DNA from: Frankia sp. RB7
GTDB taxonomy: Bacteria > Pseudomonadota > Alphaproteobacteria > Rhizobiales > Xanthobacteraceae
DNA: 64,000 bases
Assembly (NCBI GenBank): GCA_030403585.1
Contig: JAUEPE010000008.1
Coordinates: 62,001 to 126,000, forward strand
Direction of reading: 5' to 3'
A program made the position numbers and the translations under genes. How positions within the stretch are numbered: the stretch's first letter is position 1; each line of letters opens with the position of its first letter. Positions 11,709-18,264 of the stretch are shown in pieces. The notes under the pieces are model-generated. The model was not told the DNA's origin. It ran no database searches and saw only the letters and a program-made list of their open reading frames with translations.

Positions 11709-13142
11709 CTAGCCCCACACCACGCCGGCGTCTGGTTTCGCAGCAGCCATCCGCGGCGGCCGCACCACGGTGACGGTGCAGGTGGCCTCGGCAGCCACCT
11801 TGGCCGAGACGCTGCCGAGCCAGGTACGCCTGAACGAATTTTGCCGCGCCCCGATGATGAGATGGTCGACCGAGTTCATCTCGGCGAATTCCAGCAGCGC
11901 CGTGGCGGGATCGACCGCCTCAAGCACATGAACCGACAGCCGGCTCTCGTCGAGCTTTAGCGGCGTGGCCCAATGCCGGAGCGCTACCAGACGGTCGATG
12001 TGCTTGTTGGAACCCTGCTCGTCCAGCGTCTTGTCGACGGCAATGCGATTGAGCTTCAGCACGTTGACACAGGCGAGCCGTGCTGACGGCAGGGTCGCTA
12101 GGATGCGTTCGGTCGTCACACGTAGCGCCTCGTTCAGCTCCGGCTCACCTTCCACCGTATCGAGCGCAACCGCGAGGATCGGGCTCGAAGCGATCTGCTC
12201 GGCGACATCCGACTTTGCCCGCGGCTGCATGGCGTCCTGGTTGAAGCGGCGCCGCCACGCCACGCTCCAGGGATCGCGCTTCATCCGCTCCGAACGCGCG
12301 GTCAGCCTGACCTGGTTCGGATGGGCGAGATCGAAGGCGAGCTGCGCCGCGGTCGGATAGCGCCGGACCGGCTCGATCTCCAGGCACCGCAACACCACCT
12401 CCTGCAACCAGGGCGGATAGTCGGCGCGCAAGCCTCGCGGCGGATGCGGATCGCGCCACAGCCTCCGCCGCATCGCGCGCAGCGTTTCGCCCTCACCGAA
12501 GGGGCGTTCGCCGGTGGTGAAGAAATAAAGCAGCACGCCGAGCGAAAACAGGTCGCTGCGCGGATCGTCGCGCACACCCAAAAGCCGCTCCGGCGCCATG
12601 TAAGGCGCCGTGCCGTAAGGCAGGCGGAACTCTGCCTGCAACAGGTCGGGCAGATGATCGTGGTGCGACAGGCCATAGTCGATCAACACCGCTTCGCCGC
12701 TCTCGCGGAACATGATGCTGCTCGGCTTGAGGTCGTGATGGATCACATTCTGCCGGTGCAGATCGGCGAGCGCGGCCGCGATCTTCGCCACCAGCAGCCG
12801 CGCCTCCTCGTAAGGCAGCGGCAGGTCAGGCAGCCGCTTGTAGAGGGTTGTCCCGGAAATGCGCTCGATCACCGCATAGGCCTGATGCGCGAAATCGCCG
12901 GTGCCATAGCAGTGCGGCACATGGGGTCCTGTCAGCCGGGGCAGGATCATCATCTCCATCTCGAAGGAGACGATCGCCGCCGGGTCCTCACCCTCGGACG
13001 CCTTCGGAATCTTCATCAGCAGCGGCGTGTCGATATCGGCATGGGTGACGGTCCAGAGCGTCGCCATGCCGCCGGCATGCACGCATTCGCCGATGGTGTA
13101 GCCATCGACGACGGCGCCGGGTTTGACCAGGGGTTTCGGCAT
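11709..13142 (-). CDS. Ser/Thr protein kinase fused to a universal stress (UspA) domain
   Basis: This 477-residue cytoplasmic protein has an N-terminal Hanks-type kinase domain (about residues 10-280): glycine-rich loop HAGGMATLW, catalytic Lys in LLMKIPKA, catalytic loop HHDLKPSS, metal motif DYG in place of DFG, and the APE-like MAPERLLG. Residues 310-465 are a UspA fold with the nucleotide-binding signature GAR...LGSVS and VTVVRPP at the end. No membrane segment or extracellular sensor is present. It starts 6 bases after the metallophosphatase stop, so the two form an operon, probably an opposing kinase/phosphatase pair. The substrate is unknown; the membrane proteins encoded upstream on the same strand are candidates. 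Confidence 0.87.
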   Translation of the reverse strand: MPKPLVKPGAVVDGYTIGECVHAGGMATLWTVTHADIDTPLLMKIPKASEGEDPAAIVSFEMEMMILPRLTGPHVPHCYGTGDFAHQAYAVIERISGTTLYKRLPDLPLPYEEARLLVAKIAAALADLHRQNVIHHDLKPSSIMFRESGEAVLIDYGLSHHDHLPDLLQAEFRLPYGTAPYMAPERLLGVRDDPRSDLFSLGVLLYFFTTGERPFGEGETLRAMRRRLWRDPHPPRGLRADYPPWLQEVVLRCLEIEPVRRYPTAAQLAFDLAHPNQVRLTARSERMKRDPWSVAWRRRFNQDAMQPRAKSDVAEQIASSPILAVALDTVEGEPELNEALRVTTERILATLPSARLACVNVLKLNRIAVDKTLDEQGSNKHIDRLVALRHWATPLKLDESRLSVHVLEAVDPATALLEFAEMNSVDHLIIGARQNSFRRTWLGSVSAKVAAEATCTVTVVRPPRMAAAKPDAGVVWG

Positions 13143-13148
13143 CGGCCT

Positions 13149-13889
13149 CTAGCGCCCTTCCGACAGCCGGTCGGCAAGCCAGTGCGGCAGGCCGTTCTCG
13201 CGAATCCGGTTCGCCGCGCTCGCGACGTCATAGGGGGCACGGCAATAGGTGATCTGGCACGAGACCGTATCGAACAGCACGAACGCCGCCGACGGATCAC
13301 CGTCACGCGGCTGGCCGACCGCACCGAGCACGGCCAGCCATTGCCGCCCGCGCAGGAGCGGCACGGAAACATCGGTCTTGGGCACGAGGCCCGTCATCTT
13401 CGCCGTCACCGACATCGAATAGAGTGCGGGACGGTGAATGTGTCCGCAGAAGGTCACGTGGGCGGGGGTCGATATCAGGCTCTTGGCAGCGTCCGCCGTC
13501 GAGCGAATGTAGTGCCAGCGCTGGGGTTGAGAGGCTTCCGAGTGCACGAACAGACGGTCGCCGTCCTCGACGATCATCGGCAGTTCCGCAAGAAACCGGC
13601 GCTGCGCGACGTCGAGCCGTCCGCGCGTCCATTCGATCGCAATCTGGGCCTCATTGTTCATGGTCTCGGACGAGGAGTTCACCGCCTGGTCGTGATTGCC
13701 GCGGACGGCGACGGCGCCCTGAGCGACCAGCTCCATCGCGGTATCCACGACCCATTCCGGATCGGCGCCATAGCCGACGAAATCGCCGAGCATGACGAAC
13801 CGCGCCGCGCCCTTGGCGCGGGCCGCCTTCAGGCAGGCCTCGAACGCCTGCCGGTTGCCGTGGATATCCGAGAAGACAGCGAGAAGCAC
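13149..13889 (-). CDS. Metallophosphoesterase (PPP-like phosphatase)
   Basis: This 246-residue calcineurin-type enzyme shows the dimetal motifs FSDIHGN at the N-terminus, GDFVGYG near residue 36, RGNHD near residue 79, and GHIHRPA. These match the YfcE/PrpE-like group that includes small protein phosphatases. The start is a GTG with GGAGG about 4 bases upstream. The kinase-UspA gene follows after 6 bases, which suggests that it dephosphorylates the same proteins; a small-molecule phosphodiester substrate is an alternative. A long inverted repeat lies just upstream at 13900-13941. Confidence 0.88.
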   Translation of the reverse strand: MLLAVFSDIHGNRQAFEACLKAARAKGAARFVMLGDFVGYGADPEWVVDTAMELVAQGAVAVRGNHDQAVNSSSETMNNEAQIAIEWTRGRLDVAQRRFLAELPMIVEDGDRLFVHSEASQPQRWHYIRSTADAAKSLISTPAHVTFCGHIHRPALYSMSVTAKMTGLVPKTDVSVPLLRGRQWLAVLGAVGQPRDGDPSAAFVLFDTVSCQITYCRAPYDVASAANRIRENGLPHWLADRLSEGR

Positions 13890-13899
13890 AGACCCTCCA

Positions 13900-13941
13900 C
13901 CCTCAAATTCTTAATTGACGCCGATAAAGCCAATTTGAGGG
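13900..13941 (-). promoter_or_regulatory. Inverted repeat ahead of the phosphatase-kinase genes
   Basis: Ten-base arms CCCTCAAATT and AATTTGAGGG are separated by 22 bases. The arm nearest the phosphatase gene ends next to its GGAGGG ribosome site, so the element could be an operator for a dimeric regulator, or a hairpin in the mRNA that limits access to the ribosome site. It sits in the 117-base gap between the 2-TM protein gene and the phosphatase gene, so it may let the last two genes of the locus be controlled separately. Confidence 0.4.
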
Positions 13942-14006
13942 AGGCGGGCAAGATGCGCCAGCGCAGGGCGGTTGGCCAGCGCCGCGCTTGCGCAATGGTG
14001 AAGAGC

Positions 14007-14612
14007 CTATTGCTCGTCCTTGGGCGGCATCCGGGGCGGCGGCAGCGGCGTGAACACGGCGCTTTGTGCGCCGGCCGGCGGGGCATTGAACTCGCCGGTC
14101 GAGGAATCGCCGCCGCTGGTCTCAAGGATGACCTTGGGCGTCACATATTCCCGCACCATGTCGATCAGGCTGCCCTCGCCGCCGCCAAAGTCCGCCGCGC
14201 GTCCGCCTTGCGGGTGGCCTGCAGCGATCTCATTCTCGGCCGCATGGGTCTTGTCGGCCAGGGTGTCGTTGTAGGGGACGCGGAAGGCGCGCGGGATGCC
14301 GCTCGGACGGTGATCCTCGTCGAGTTCCTCGACCCACAGATAGATCGAGCCGGGATCGCCCTCCAGCGAGTGCGGCTCGACGATGCGCGCCTTGAGCAGC
14401 TTGAACGCGGTGGGAAGCCGATCCGTGCTGGCCCAGCCGAGCAGCCCGCGCATTTCCGTGAAGCTGACGATATAGAAGGCGCTGGTCACGACCACCGCGA
14501 CCGCCTTCAGCGACCAGTGCAGCCGCGCATAGACCAGCACGACCAGCAGAAGCGCGCCAATCACGGCATAGGCGACCGAGAGCGTGAGGATGACCGTTTG
14601 CAGATTAATCAC
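14007..14612 (-). CDS. Two-span membrane protein of unknown function, ExbB-like locus
   Basis: This 201-residue protein has two N-terminal membrane helices (about residues 5-28 and 34-52) followed by a mostly hydrophilic domain of about 140 residues and a proline-rich tail ending PPPRMPPKDEQ. I recognise no family. Its start overlaps the end of the upstream gene by 8 bases, so it is translationally coupled to the other two membrane proteins of the locus. It may be a third component of the channel complex; that role is inferred from gene order only. Confidence 0.75.
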   Translation of the reverse strand: MINLQTVILTLSVAYAVIGALLLVVLVYARLHWSLKAVAVVVTSAFYIVSFTEMRGLLGWASTDRLPTAFKLLKARIVEPHSLEGDPGSIYLWVEELDEDHRPSGIPRAFRVPYNDTLADKTHAAENEIAAGHPQGGRAADFGGGEGSLIDMVREYVTPKVILETSGGDSSTGEFNAPPAGAQSAVFTPLPPPRMPPKDEQ

Positions 14613-15291
14613 GGCGGATCCTCGTGGCGTTCTTGCTCACGCCGGTCCTCGGATCGAGATCGGCCCCGTTGCGCCAAGTGCTGCGGAAGGTCTCCATCAG
14701 CGATTTCGGCCTTTGGCTGACATCGATGACCTTGCCCTCGCCATCGAGCCGGAACCGCACCGCGGTCTTCTCATCGCCGGTATGGTCGAGCGTGAATTTG
14801 TTGTCGAAGACCACCTGCGCCGTCGGATTGAGCTTTTGCACCTTCACATTGGCGGTCACGGGCTCGCCGGTCGTGGCGACGAAATGCGAGACGTTGACGG
14901 TGTATTCGCCGGGGACGATACCGCGCAGCGTGACGATCTCCTCGCGAATGGGAGAAGCGATCTTCTTGCCGTTGACCATGATGAAGTCATTGGCCCCGCC
15001 CCTATCGTCGCGATCGAGCGTGAGGAAGCCGGCCTCGCGGTGTCGATACCAGGCGATGTTGCCGGCTGGATCCTGCACGAACAGGTCGAGATCGTCAGGG
15101 TGATTGTCCGGCCAGTCCAGCGTGATCATGAACTCGGCCTTGGAGTCGATCTTGCCCTCCTTGGCGTCGGGAGAGACCGCGAGCAGCGCGAGGAAGAACA
15201 GGAAGGCGACCACTTGGAGCGCCTTGAACAGCATCACGCCCAAGGGATCGAACGGCTCCTCGCGCGGATAGAGACCGAAATCATCCATCAT
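14605..15291 (-). CDS. Single-span protein with predicted periplasmic beta-sandwich domain, ExbB-like locus
   Basis: This 228-residue protein has one membrane helix (about residues 18-40) and a large domain beyond it. The domain carries a stretch like DDLDLFVQDPAGNIAWY followed by LDRDDRGGAND, a pattern seen in beta-sandwich domains of the DUF2135 kind and in some phage structural proteins. Unlike ExbD, TolR or MotB, the membrane helix has no aspartate in its centre; Asp15 lies just before it. Its ATGA start overlaps the end of the ExbB-like gene. It occupies the position of the ExbD subunit in the operon, but I do not claim it is ExbD. Confidence 0.75.
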   Translation of the reverse strand: MMDDFGLYPREEPFDPLGVMLFKALQVVAFLFFLALLAVSPDAKEGKIDSKAEFMITLDWPDNHPDDLDLFVQDPAGNIAWYRHREAGFLTLDRDDRGGANDFIMVNGKKIASPIREEIVTLRGIVPGEYTVNVSHFVATTGEPVTANVKVQKLNPTAQVVFDNKFTLDHTGDEKTAVRFRLDGEGKVIDVSQRPKSLMETFRSTWRNGADLDPRTGVSKNATRIRRD

Positions 15292-16058
15292 GACGGCGTT
15301 CCAGCGCCTTTGCGCTCGAGAACCGGCGTCACATAGGTCTCGGTCAGCACCACGGCATCGGAGAACACCCGCTGGGTCGCAGAATCGAGCATGTAATACT
15401 GGATGCGAACCAGGATGGAACCGACGAGACCCGCCAGCGTCGTGTACATCGCAACCGCCATGCCGTCGCTCATCAGCCCCATCGAGGAGCGCATCGCGAC
15501 CTTGTCGGCGGCATCCAGTCCGGCAATCGGCGCCAGCATGATGATGAAGCCGATGATGGTGCCGAGCAGGCCTAGCTTCATCAGCGTGTCGGAGACGAAT
15601 GCGCCGAACCCGTTGGAGCCGCGCAGGCGGTCGGCAAGCGTCCGCAGCAAGAGCGTCTGATCGACCGGGCGGTAATCCTGCGCGGCCGCTTTCGTCACGA
15701 GGCTGTCGATGTGGTCGCGCACCAGCCCGTGCGGCAGCGTGGTCGTGCTTGCGTCGAGCACCTTGCCGCCGTCTGGCGCCGCCAGCACCGCGCGGCAGCG
15801 CCGCGCGGCGGCACCTTCACGCGCGATCGCCCGTGTGCGCAGGAAGCAATGACCGCAGGTCAGGATATAGAGCACCGCGATCACGCTCGAAATATAGGTC
15901 CGGTCCGAGGTCAGCATCAGATGGATCAGGCCGAACCGCCACAGCAGTACGACCGCGAAGATCGATAGCCCCGTAAAAATCATCCAAAACAGCAGCGCGC
16001 TGCGCTCGGATGGGTCGGTCGCGGTGTTCGCGATCGGTCCAATCGTTATCGAACTCAT
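15288..16058 (-). CDS. MotA/TolQ/ExbB-family proton channel protein
   Basis: This 256-residue inner-membrane protein has four predicted helices. The last two match the MotA/TolQ/ExbB core: LGLLGTIIGFIIML followed, after a short loop, by SDGMAVAMYTTLAGLVGSILVRIQ. ExbB-type subunits form pentamers around a two-copy partner and use proton flow to do mechanical work across the envelope. The usual ExbD/TonB or TolR/TolA genes are not nearby. The start lies about 180 bases from the divergent histidine kinase gene. It leads a leftward run of five collinear genes ending with a phosphatase and a kinase. Confidence 0.86.
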   Translation of the reverse strand: MSSITIGPIANTATDPSERSALLFWMIFTGLSIFAVVLLWRFGLIHLMLTSDRTYISSVIAVLYILTCGHCFLRTRAIAREGAAARRCRAVLAAPDGGKVLDASTTTLPHGLVRDHIDSLVTKAAAQDYRPVDQTLLLRTLADRLRGSNGFGAFVSDTLMKLGLLGTIIGFIIMLAPIAGLDAADKVAMRSSMGLMSDGMAVAMYTTLAGLVGSILVRIQYYMLDSATQRVFSDAVVLTETYVTPVLERKGAGTPS

Positions 16059-16238: not shown

Positions 16239-17606
16239 ATGCGCCTCGTGCTTCAGCTTGTCGCCCGTCTGCTTCTCATCGTTGCGCTGTGCCTGGGCGC
16301 GGCGACCGTTTGGGCCACGTTCGATGCCTATCGCAGCGTCGACCGGGCGACTGCAGCCTCCGCGCAGCGGGTCGCGCAGGCTCTTCAAGCGCTGTATTGG
16401 CACGAGCTCTTGCTGCGCAGCAGCAGGATGCGCGAGCATCTCGTGCCGGTTCCGGAGTGGCGGACGCTGGAGACGATGAAGCTGATCTCGCCCGGCGTCT
16501 GCGTCGAGTTCCAACCGGCGACCGCGTTCGAAAGGCCGCTTTGCGGCCAGAGCCAGGGAATCGGCAGTACACCGCCGCGCTGGTTCGCGTCCATCGTTCC
16601 GACCTTCCTCGGCAGCCACGCCGAGGTGGTGCGGCCGGTCAGCCCCCGCGCCGCCGCTGCCGGAACGGTTGTCGCGACGCCGGATGAAGCAGCCGCAATC
16701 TCGCTCGCCTGGGAGTACATTCTCAACGTGATCGACGTTGCACTGCTGATGGCGGCGGCGATCGCGCTGCTGGCTTCGCTCGCGATCGCGCACACGCTGG
16801 CGCCGGCGCGGGCCATCGTGACGGCATTGCAACGCATGGCGCGCGGCCAGTATCGCACAAAACTGCCGCGCTTCCGCTCCATGGAGCTTGAGATGATCGG
16901 CGGCGCCGTCGAGAAACTCGGCAGCCGATTGGAAGAATCCGTCGAACAACGCGCGGCGCTCACGCGGCGCCTGATCGAGATCCGCGACGACGAGCGGCGC
17001 GCGCTCGCCCGCGAGCTGCACGACGAGTTCGGGCAAAATCTCTCCGCCATCCTCGCTTTCGCCAACACGATCGAGACGGCGAGTACCAAAGACAAGGATA
17101 ACGGCATCGCGCAGGACGCGCGCATGATCTCGCAGGCCACGCACCATTTGATGGCCTCGCTGCGCGACGCGCTGAAGCGCCTGCGCAATCCCCTGCCCGA
17201 GGAGTTTGGGCTGGAAGCGAGCCTCGTCAACCTCGTCGACAGCTGGCGCTCGCAGAGCGCGACCCAGCCGACGATCCAGCTCGACCTCAAGGGCGATCTC
17301 ACCGACATCCGCGGTGCGGCCGCCACGACCGCCTATCGCGTCGCCCAGGAATGCCTGACCAATGCGCTGCGCCACGGCGCGGCCCGCGAAATCTCGTTAC
17401 ACGTCGAGCGGTGCGCGGGCGGGGACGATGCGCTTCTCATCCGCGTCGAGGACGACGGCGGCGGCGATGCGGCGCGTGTGGCGCGCTCGACCGGCTTCGG
17501 CCTCACCGGCATCCGCGAGCGTGTCGCGGCCGCCGGCGGATCGTTGTCGATCCTGCCCGCGAGCCGCGGGCTCAGCGTCGCCGCGACCATCCCGCTTGCT
17601 GCGTGA
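16239..17606 (+). CDS. NarX/DegS-type membrane histidine kinase
   Basis: This 455-residue sensor kinase has a membrane helix at residues 3-27, a periplasmic domain of about 130 residues, a second helix near residues 165-188, a HAMP-like linker, and a HisKA_3 domain with phospho-acceptor His261 in RELHDEFGQ. The ATPase domain has RVAQECLTNALRHG as N box and VEDDGGGD plus GFGLTGIRERV as G boxes. I place the start at the ATG at 16239 rather than TTG 16227, since it begins directly with the basic-hydrophobic MRLVLQLV. The response regulator gene follows after 7 bases. The stimulus is unknown. Confidence 0.92.
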   Translation: MRLVLQLVARLLLIVALCLGAATVWATFDAYRSVDRATAASAQRVAQALQALYWHELLLRSSRMREHLVPVPEWRTLETMKLISPGVCVEFQPATAFERPLCGQSQGIGSTPPRWFASIVPTFLGSHAEVVRPVSPRAAAAGTVVATPDEAAAISLAWEYILNVIDVALLMAAAIALLASLAIAHTLAPARAIVTALQRMARGQYRTKLPRFRSMELEMIGGAVEKLGSRLEESVEQRAALTRRLIEIRDDERRALARELHDEFGQNLSAILAFANTIETASTKDKDNGIAQDARMISQATHHLMASLRDALKRLRNPLPEEFGLEASLVNLVDSWRSQSATQPTIQLDLKGDLTDIRGAAATTAYRVAQECLTNALRHGAAREISLHVERCAGGDDALLIRVEDDGGGDAARVARSTGFGLTGIRERVAAAGGSLSILPASRGLSVAATIPLAA

Positions 17607-17613
17607 GGCCGTC

Positions 17614-18264
17614 ATGAGCGATGTCGCAGCAACAGGCATCTCGGTGCTGCTGGTCGACGACCATCCGATCGTCCGTCAGGGCTACCGGCGCGTGCTGGAG
17701 AGCCAGGGCGATCTCCACGTCGTGGCGGAAGCCGACAATGCCGCGGATGCCTACGGCGCCTTCAAGAAGCATGATCCCGACGTCGTGCTGATGGACATTT
17801 CGATGCCCGGCGCCAGCGGCCTCGAGGCGATCCGCAATATCCGCGCTCGTAGTCCCCGCGCGCGCATCCTCGTCTTCACCATGCACAACGAGGCCGTGCT
17901 GGTGAAAGCCGCTTTCAATGCCGGCGCCTCCGGCTTCGTCACCAAGAGCAGCGCCCCCTCCGCCGTCGTCAACGCCATCCGCAGCGTCGCCCGCGGCGAG
18001 CGGGCCATGAGCGACGACATCGCGCACGTGCTGGCCGAGGACAGCCTGTCGACAGGCTCAGCGCTGGATCAACTGGGTGAGCGCGAGATCGAGATTTTGC
18101 GCCAGTTCGCCGGCGGCGCCACCACCGAAGAGATCGCCGCGCATCTCAATCTGAGCGTCAAGACGGTCCAGAATTATCACTATCTGATCAAGACCAAGAC
18201 CGGCACACGCACGGACGCGCAGCTCGTTCGGCTGGCGGCGAGTTGCGGGTTGACGAAGATTTAG
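17614..18264 (+). CDS. NarL/FixJ-family response regulator
   Basis: This 216-residue regulator pairs with the histidine kinase directly upstream. The receiver domain (residues 8-125) has DDHP at the acidic pocket, phospho-acceptor Asp61 in LMDISMPG, and Lys in VTKSS. The C-terminal LuxR-type helix-turn-helix lies at residues 150-210 (REIEILRQFAGGATTEEIA and LSVKTVQNY). The ATG has GAGG 5 bases upstream. Target genes are unknown; the divergent ExbB-like locus is the nearest candidate. Confidence 0.94.
   Translation: MSDVAATGISVLLVDDHPIVRQGYRRVLESQGDLHVVAEADNAADAYGAFKKHDPDVVLMDISMPGASGLEAIRNIRARSPRARILVFTMHNEAVLVKAAFNAGASGFVTKSSAPSAVVNAIRSVARGERAMSDDIAHVLAEDSLSTGSALDQLGEREIEILRQFAGGATTEEIAAHLNLSVKTVQNYHYLIKTKTGTRTDAQLVRLAASCGLTKI

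Follow-up and report, generated by a model that had tools for sequence, protein, structure and literature searches.

A conserved three-gene ExbB/MotA-type membrane unit with a possible role in PQQ-dependent alcohol dehydrogenase systems

What machine is built from an ExbB-like channel and two partner proteins without a family name, and what does it work for? The question is raised by five genes, here called A to E, at positions 11,709 to 16,058 of a 64,000-nucleotide stretch of Frankia sp. RB7 DNA (contig JAUEPE010000008.1 of GCA_030403585.1; genome of 7.4 Mb in 124 contigs). We refer to the whole 64,000-nucleotide stretch as the window. A preliminary description, made from the sequence alone, had joined all five genes into one proton-driven envelope system controlled by reversible phosphorylation. 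We find that A-B-C is one unit, a conserved and so far unnamed membrane machine of proton-channel type, and it is quite probable that this trio serves quinoprotein systems. More specifically, we propose, at a probability of roughly 45%, that A, B and C make up an inner-membrane machine of three subunits and of MotA/TolQ/ExbB type, which serves periplasmic alcohol dehydrogenase systems that depend on pyrroloquinoline quinone (PQQ-ADH). Channels of the ExbB/MotA type drive motility, import across the outer membrane, constriction of the envelope and defence against phages, and if our proposal is true the PQQ-linked family would add a new task for this engine. The five genes are as follows:

15288-16058, minus strand: gene A, a MotA/TolQ/ExbB-type channel subunit (256 amino acids; Pfam MotA_ExbB, 1.1e-8)
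14605-15291, minus strand: gene B, a putative ExbD/TolR/MotB-like partner with one predicted membrane helix and a predicted TerD-like beta-sandwich (228 amino acids; AlphaFold2, family alignment)
14007-14612, minus strand: gene C, two predicted membrane helices and a domain with an invariant Pro-Arg, P107 R108 (201 amino acids; AlphaFold2, alignments)
13149-13889, minus strand: gene D, a calcineurin-like metallophosphoesterase, outside the trio (246 amino acids; Pfam Metallophos_2, 3.6e-18)
11709-13142, minus strand: gene E, a Ser/Thr kinase fused to a Usp domain, paired with D and outside the trio (477 amino acids; Pfam Pkinase 2.4e-28, Usp 1.1e-12)

All five open reading frames lie on the minus strand in the order first described, with overlaps of 4 bp (A/B) and 8 bp (B/C) and the reported spacing of 6 bp between D and E; the gap between C and D, which the preliminary description did not state, is 117 bp. 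Family scans of the window proteins returned no Pfam or NCBIfam match reaching cut-off for B or C, leaving the two partner proteins with no family name in either database.

Homologues of B were collected from 199 genomes of the order, 22 of which have one, and from 289 genomes of the class, where the number is 37, and further loci were taken as the best 80 among at least 469 relatives from named genomes, whose titles are those of Alpha- and Gammaproteobacteria. The preliminary description had proposed looking for the gene order in other genomes, and of 139 loci from these two classes, 125 keep A-B-C in this order and on a single strand. Clustering assigned A-B alone to seven of the remaining loci, B-C alone to four and neither to three, with several of them at contig ends, while C adjoins B on the same strand in 129/139. 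These loci hold 131 distinct B sequences, with seven sets of loci sharing an identical B, and their hosts are plant-associated, soil and marine Proteobacteria, including metagenome-assembled genomes (MAGs) labelled SAR86 and PS1. A literature search found no description of the A-B-C trio. For A-B-C, which is conserved far beyond this strain, the earlier idea is thus supported: an ExbB-type envelope system that has not been described before and whose two partners are unusual.

Two forms of B can be told apart by score against the B of the window, short-form proteins reaching at most 82.8 bits and long-form proteins at least 152 bits, and in the class sample a clean E-value gap separates them. 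Short-form B proteins (L046, L047, L098-L111) are about nine residues shorter; in most of their loci A, and mostly also C, adjoins, and PQQ genes were not found nearby. The short-form trio may be this engine directed at a different target.

The neighbours that recur at long-form loci, as named by NCBIfam, are the PQQ-dependent dehydrogenase TIGR03075, the ATP-binding cassette components TIGR03861/63/64 and the beta-propeller protein TIGR03866. Together with pqqBCDE, genes of this PQQ-ADH system (TIGR03075, TIGR03861/63/64/66) neighbour the long-form trio, whereas A-B-C itself does not figure among the components that NCBIfam names. Counting a fixed marker set of PQQ-system genes within 8 kb of the trio, we found at least one in 66/123 long-form loci as compared with 0/16 short-form loci (p 1.6e-5), figures in which neighbours are undercounted because 37 of 138 loci span less than 12 kb. 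The linkage was also seen by distinct sequence (59/115 long-form), by groups at 70% identity (21/30 long-form vs 0/14 short-form) and by groups at 80% identity (31/52 vs 0/14). An earlier automatic split by motif had marked 63/121 long-form and 2/18 short-form loci, and L144 and L202 were reassigned to the long form by score. PQQ dehydrogenases were called in 51 of these loci, 57 in all, and every one of them matches TIGR03075 with an E-value of 1e-80 or lower. By a rough background estimate (some 135 dehydrogenase genes listed across 289 genomes of about 3 Mb each), well under 1% of random 16-kb stretches would hold such a gene.

The linkage takes several forms. Dehydrogenases at 5 kb or less are downstream and convergent in 37 loci, upstream and divergent in five, upstream on the same strand in seven and downstream on the same strand in one. 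At L221, pqqB-C-D-E is followed by A after a 2-bp gap, and at L037 a single strand carries pqqB, C, E, a pqqD-like gene, one further gene, a Sel1 gene and then A-B-C. Divergent trios from the window's own genus lie 3.5 kb (L214) and 2.9 kb (L215) from a PQQ-ADH gene, or beside the quinoprotein relay genes TIGR04557/04559/03865/03871 (L224).

Co-occurrence was assessed in the class sample of 289 genomes, which includes 21 long-form and 16 short-form genomes. PQQ-ADH is present in 18/21 long-form genomes vs 53/268 others (p 1.2e-9), or in 15/21 vs 49/268 at the curated cut-off, and pqqC is present in 11/21 vs 37/268 (p 8.8e-5). For the short form, PQQ-ADH is found in 5/16 genomes (p 0.55). Eight long-form genomes have PQQ-ADH and no pqqC match; this favours a tie to the enzyme, or to acquired PQQ, over one to the synthesis of PQQ. 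Five genomes of 1.4-1.7 Mb that are 95-100% complete (G216, G445, G247, G371 and G466) carry PQQ-ADH beside the trio with no pqqC match, and it is possible that they are PQQ scavengers.

Acquired PQQ also bears on the main rival to our proposal, in which the trio is an uptake energiser, an ExbB-ExbD-like engine for TonB-dependent import of PQQ or of a metal chelator with C in the place of TonB. The eight genomes above may import PQQ, and the PQQ clusters at L208, L216 and L220 do contain genes for TonB-dependent receptors, with PqqU matches that are weak and below cut-off. On the other hand, most trios have no adjoining receptor gene, the head of B is not ExbD-like, and C as a TonB is not supported, having two predicted membrane helices rather than one and no similarity to TonB (hhalign, 0.4%). 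We consider import a doubtful explanation and return to a trio that serves the periplasmic enzyme, beginning with the parts of the engine.

Gene A has four hydrophobic segments and the conserved channel motifs GLLGTIIGF (T167) and MYTTLAGL (T206, T207), and over 24 rows of its alignment L164, G166, T167, G170, F171, G199, M200, A203 and T207 are invariant. In Pfam, A reaches 35.4 bits to MotA_ExbB, the cut-off being 22.9. Searched as a profile against the PDB, A matches MotA 8gqy best (1.8e-5), with PomA and ZorA also among the matches. In hhalign comparisons with ExbB and TolQ of E. coli, A scores E 8.2e-5 with each over about 155-168 columns, and both channel motifs are included, GLLGT falling on GLFGT and MYTTL on LLATA. 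A differs from these E. coli proteins in an extra N-terminal hydrophobic segment, and the trio differs from ExbB-ExbD and TolQ-TolR in having a third subunit, C, and no TonB/TolA-like gene. The trio resembles the MotA-MotB and PomA-PomB stators in the structure that A matches best and in its four hydrophobic segments, but B has no OmpA-like peptidoglycan-binding domain and no flagellar genes adjoin the trio in the listed contexts.

Since the roles of the MotA/ExbB family are many, the trio could instead have a general envelope function, a Tol- or Zorya-like force transducer merely kept near metabolic clusters. ZorA models do match A weakly, at 16.7 bits against a cut-off of 500, and PMC12505986 describes generic ion transporters to which diverse domains have been added. 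However, A lacks the long cytoplasmic tail of ZorA, and family scans of the five genes matched neither B nor C to ZorB and found no ZorC, ZorD or ZorE nearby. Membership of Zorya itself was ruled out on the score of A and the missing ZorB match. The varied arrangements in which PQQ genes are linked to the trio, together with co-occurrence, also speak against a function unrelated to the neighbours, and a general envelope role is in our view unlikely.

B has a single hydrophobic segment, modelled by AlphaFold2 as one N-terminal helix at residues 16-38, with the family consensus D-P-F-T-D-L-L-F-N-A-L-L-G-F. The P-F-x-D of this helix has the same spacing as T-P-F-I-D-V in ExbD and V-P-L-L-D-V in TolR, and aligning MotB to B with hhalign puts Asp32 on the position-19 column, although neither the ExbD nor the MotB score is significant. 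No ExbD/TolR or MotB/OmpA-like Pfam match was found for the B of the window (E up to 1) or for that of L084 (0.1). From sequence comparison, B appears to work like an ExbD/MotB partner in outline, as a putative member of that family. The residue at position 19 is Asp in 113 of the 136 homologues that have the position and V, A or S in 23, including the window, where the codon is:

15235-15237, minus strand: V19 codon of gene B (Asp at this position in 113/136 homologues)

The preliminary description had reported no central membrane aspartate in the partners, which holds for the window's B and fails for the family. Asp or Glu is found at position 15 in 22/23 proteins without Asp19 vs 67/113 with it, and the window's lineage, with V19, retains Asp15, one helical turn earlier; as judged from these residue counts, Asp15 may replace Asp19 there. 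The substitution could also mean that the trio is a relic in this lineage, a scaffold that has lost its coupling Asp and conducts no ions, and the presence of K23 and Q26 in the same helix fits such a loss in the window and its relatives. The reading frames, the channel threonines and the gene order are all kept, however, and the acidic residue at 15 in nearly every protein without Asp19 is not what a relic would lead one to expect, making this quite an unlikely account. We next turn to the domains that a working engine would move.

AlphaFold2 models cover the B and C proteins of the window, with a mean predicted local distance difference test score (pLDDT) of 87.8 for B and 85.3 for C. The head of B, at approximately residues 52-206, is modelled as a beta-sandwich, which is not the ExbD/TolR fold by family scan. 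Compared with VIA-align, it matches TerD structures (3ibz, Z 11.8; 2qng and 9a6r_B, 9.9; 2qz7, 9.8; 2kxt, 9.6), and the next unrelated row is at Z 6.3. The TerD match covers 127-144 residues, with 141-144 aligned for 2kxt and 3ibz at root-mean-square deviations of 4.1 and 4.5. TerD is a calcium-binding tellurite-resistance protein, and the title of the 2kxt entry mentions calcium-binding properties. The likeness is one of predicted fold: TerD has no ExbD-like helix and no significant sequence relation to B, and as a sequence homologue of B it is not supported (no Pfam match, a profile comparison of 0.5%, and the TerD family in 0/61 genomes of the order). W60, D67, D69, L92, D95, G98, E118 and G128 are invariant across all 139 B sequences, and the acidic ones among them (D67, D69, D95 and E118) would fit metal binding. 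We think that the head of B is probably TerD-like in fold and metal-binding, and the model, by its fold only, suggests a part in metal or cofactor loading. C is modelled as helices at 4-28 and 33-57 followed by a small mixed domain, for which no convincing fold match was found (Foldseek best E 0.21; VIA best Z 7.1). We infer from charge that the domain of C that carries P107 R108 would be periplasmic.

In ExbB/MotA pentamers, ion flow moves the B-type subunit. By analogy, we hypothesize that A would form an ion channel and that the helix of B would carry the coupling carboxylate, Asp19 in most homologues and probably Asp15 in the window's lineage. The periplasmic TerD-like head of B, with C, would then deliver or insert a cofactor into the PQQ enzyme or otherwise activate it, while C would anchor the assembly or receive the movement via a second periplasmic domain, such that ion flow through A-B could power a step in the ATP-free periplasm. 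The driven step that we favour over others is the loading of metal (Ca2+ or a lanthanide) and/or PQQ into the dehydrogenase, or its activation with them, a tentative suggestion that we still think somewhat improbable. Unlikely, too, is the most far-reaching version, in which a new class of periplasmic machine driven by the proton-motive force uses a TerD-like head that binds Ca or lanthanide to load metal and/or PQQ into quinoproteins, and so would be the missing energised maturation step in bacteria without Mxa factors. The mxaRSACKLD maturation genes encode membrane and periplasmic factors that serve a quinoprotein and rely on a MoxR-type ATPase. The likeness of the trio to Mxa is in idea only; the trio would depend on a channel instead. 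If true, the mechanism would offer an explanation, open to experiment, for the assembly of calcium- or lanthanide-dependent quinoproteins where ATP is absent, and alcohol oxidation is common in the plant-associated, soil and marine settings of trio-bearing bacteria. PMC6277846 reports that two MotA/TolQ/ExbB genes of Methylomicrobium alcaliphilum (MEALZ_3990/3991) are lowered by lanthanum together with mxa genes, and these two may belong to the trio's family.

Several observations weigh against a role for the trio in PQQ-ADH systems. The locus of the window, and L025-L033, of which L025-L029 are its nearest relatives, have no marker gene within 8 kb, and the four PQQ-ADH genes of the window's genome are on another contig, with its one pqqC on a third. 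As many as 53/71 PQQ-ADH genomes lack the long form, which means that the long form is not generally needed. Within the genus of the window, 12/13 genomes without B still have PQQ-ADH, and with 97/98 genomes having it, the presence of PQQ-ADH does not distinguish those with B from those that lack it. The short form is weakly enriched for pqqC too (6/16, p 0.033). Both the linkage and the co-occurrence statistics ignore descent; by family, PQQ-ADH occurs somewhere in all 11 long-form families. With respect to the engine, the B of the window is itself without Asp19. The TerD resemblance is not significant when the B model is searched with Foldseek (best E 0.014), and a TerD profile compared with B reaches only 0.5%, the TerD/E profile being two rows. 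Lastly, D-x-D, which we take to be the signature of lanthanide enzymes (the identity of the catalytic Asp is likewise our assumption), is found in only 32/57 neighbouring dehydrogenases, and we infer no metal from it.

The remaining part of the question is whether D and E belong to the machine. In a five-gene proton-driven machine, kinase E and phosphatase D would control the channel, as the preliminary description had it. All five genes are on one strand, and among the 83 genomes of the genus with both B and D, the distance between them is less than 900 bp in 50, 1.7-9.8 kb in 26, and in seven D is on another contig. The wider distribution is different. Among 149 B contexts, D was matched in seven and E in six, all in the window's genus, where B is present in 85/98 genomes. 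D and E are adjacent in 84/84 genus genomes that have both, within 40 bp in 83 and at 123 bp in one; this distance table omits distant paralogues and short D fragments (e.g. G901, G912) and joins the three pieces of E in G858. Six of the 98 genus genomes have D-E without B, and in many genomes the trio has no D-E nearby. In the window, C and D are separated by 117 bp. Because B contexts with D-E are few and confined to one genus, and because six genomes have the pair without B, D-E is an independent element of that genus, separate from A-B-C. The pair is thus conserved independently of the membrane genes, an outcome that the preliminary description had itself named as refuting it, and the proposal of a five-gene locus under reversible phosphorylation does not stand. 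Kinase-phosphatase control of the channel was rejected on the distribution of D-E in the genus and in the 149 contexts, and we regard it as very improbable.

Promoter and terminator scans of 13600-14400 found none. An inverted repeat, CCCTCAAATT...AATTTGAGGG, lies at 13900-13941 ahead of gene D, and relatives have no conserved copy of it. As read from the translation, the catalytic loop of gene E is HHDLKPSS, with Ser in the place after DLKPx where we presume Asn to be usual in kinases.

On the other side of the trio, two genes are divergent from gene A:

16239-17606, plus strand: divergent sensor kinase adjoining gene A
17614-18264, plus strand: NarL-type regulator, divergent from gene A

This pair of a histidine kinase (HK) and a NarL-type regulator (16239-18264) is likely to be the regulator of the trio in the lineage of the window and in related lineages. 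HK-like matches are found in 11/149 B contexts, including L031, L032 and L222 (46-47% identity) and L220 (34%), and other genera retain a divergent HK/regulator pair next to A with 46-47% identity. Within the PQQ cluster of the window's genome, an HK and response regulator pair is 33% and 40% identical to the corresponding proteins of trio loci.

Further genes adjoin the trio in some families. In ten loci (L036-L045) the gene immediately before A, on A's strand, encodes a single-span Sel1-repeat protein, as if it were a fourth part of the system in these families. At L082, L084-L090 and L219-L221, C is followed by a secreted-looking gene of 226-254 amino acids (cluster c31/c8) with a weak DUF3108-like match. 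L139, from a MAG labelled Bauldia, and L140, from a MAG labelled Phycisphaeraceae, have identical B, suggesting cross-contamination of a MAG.

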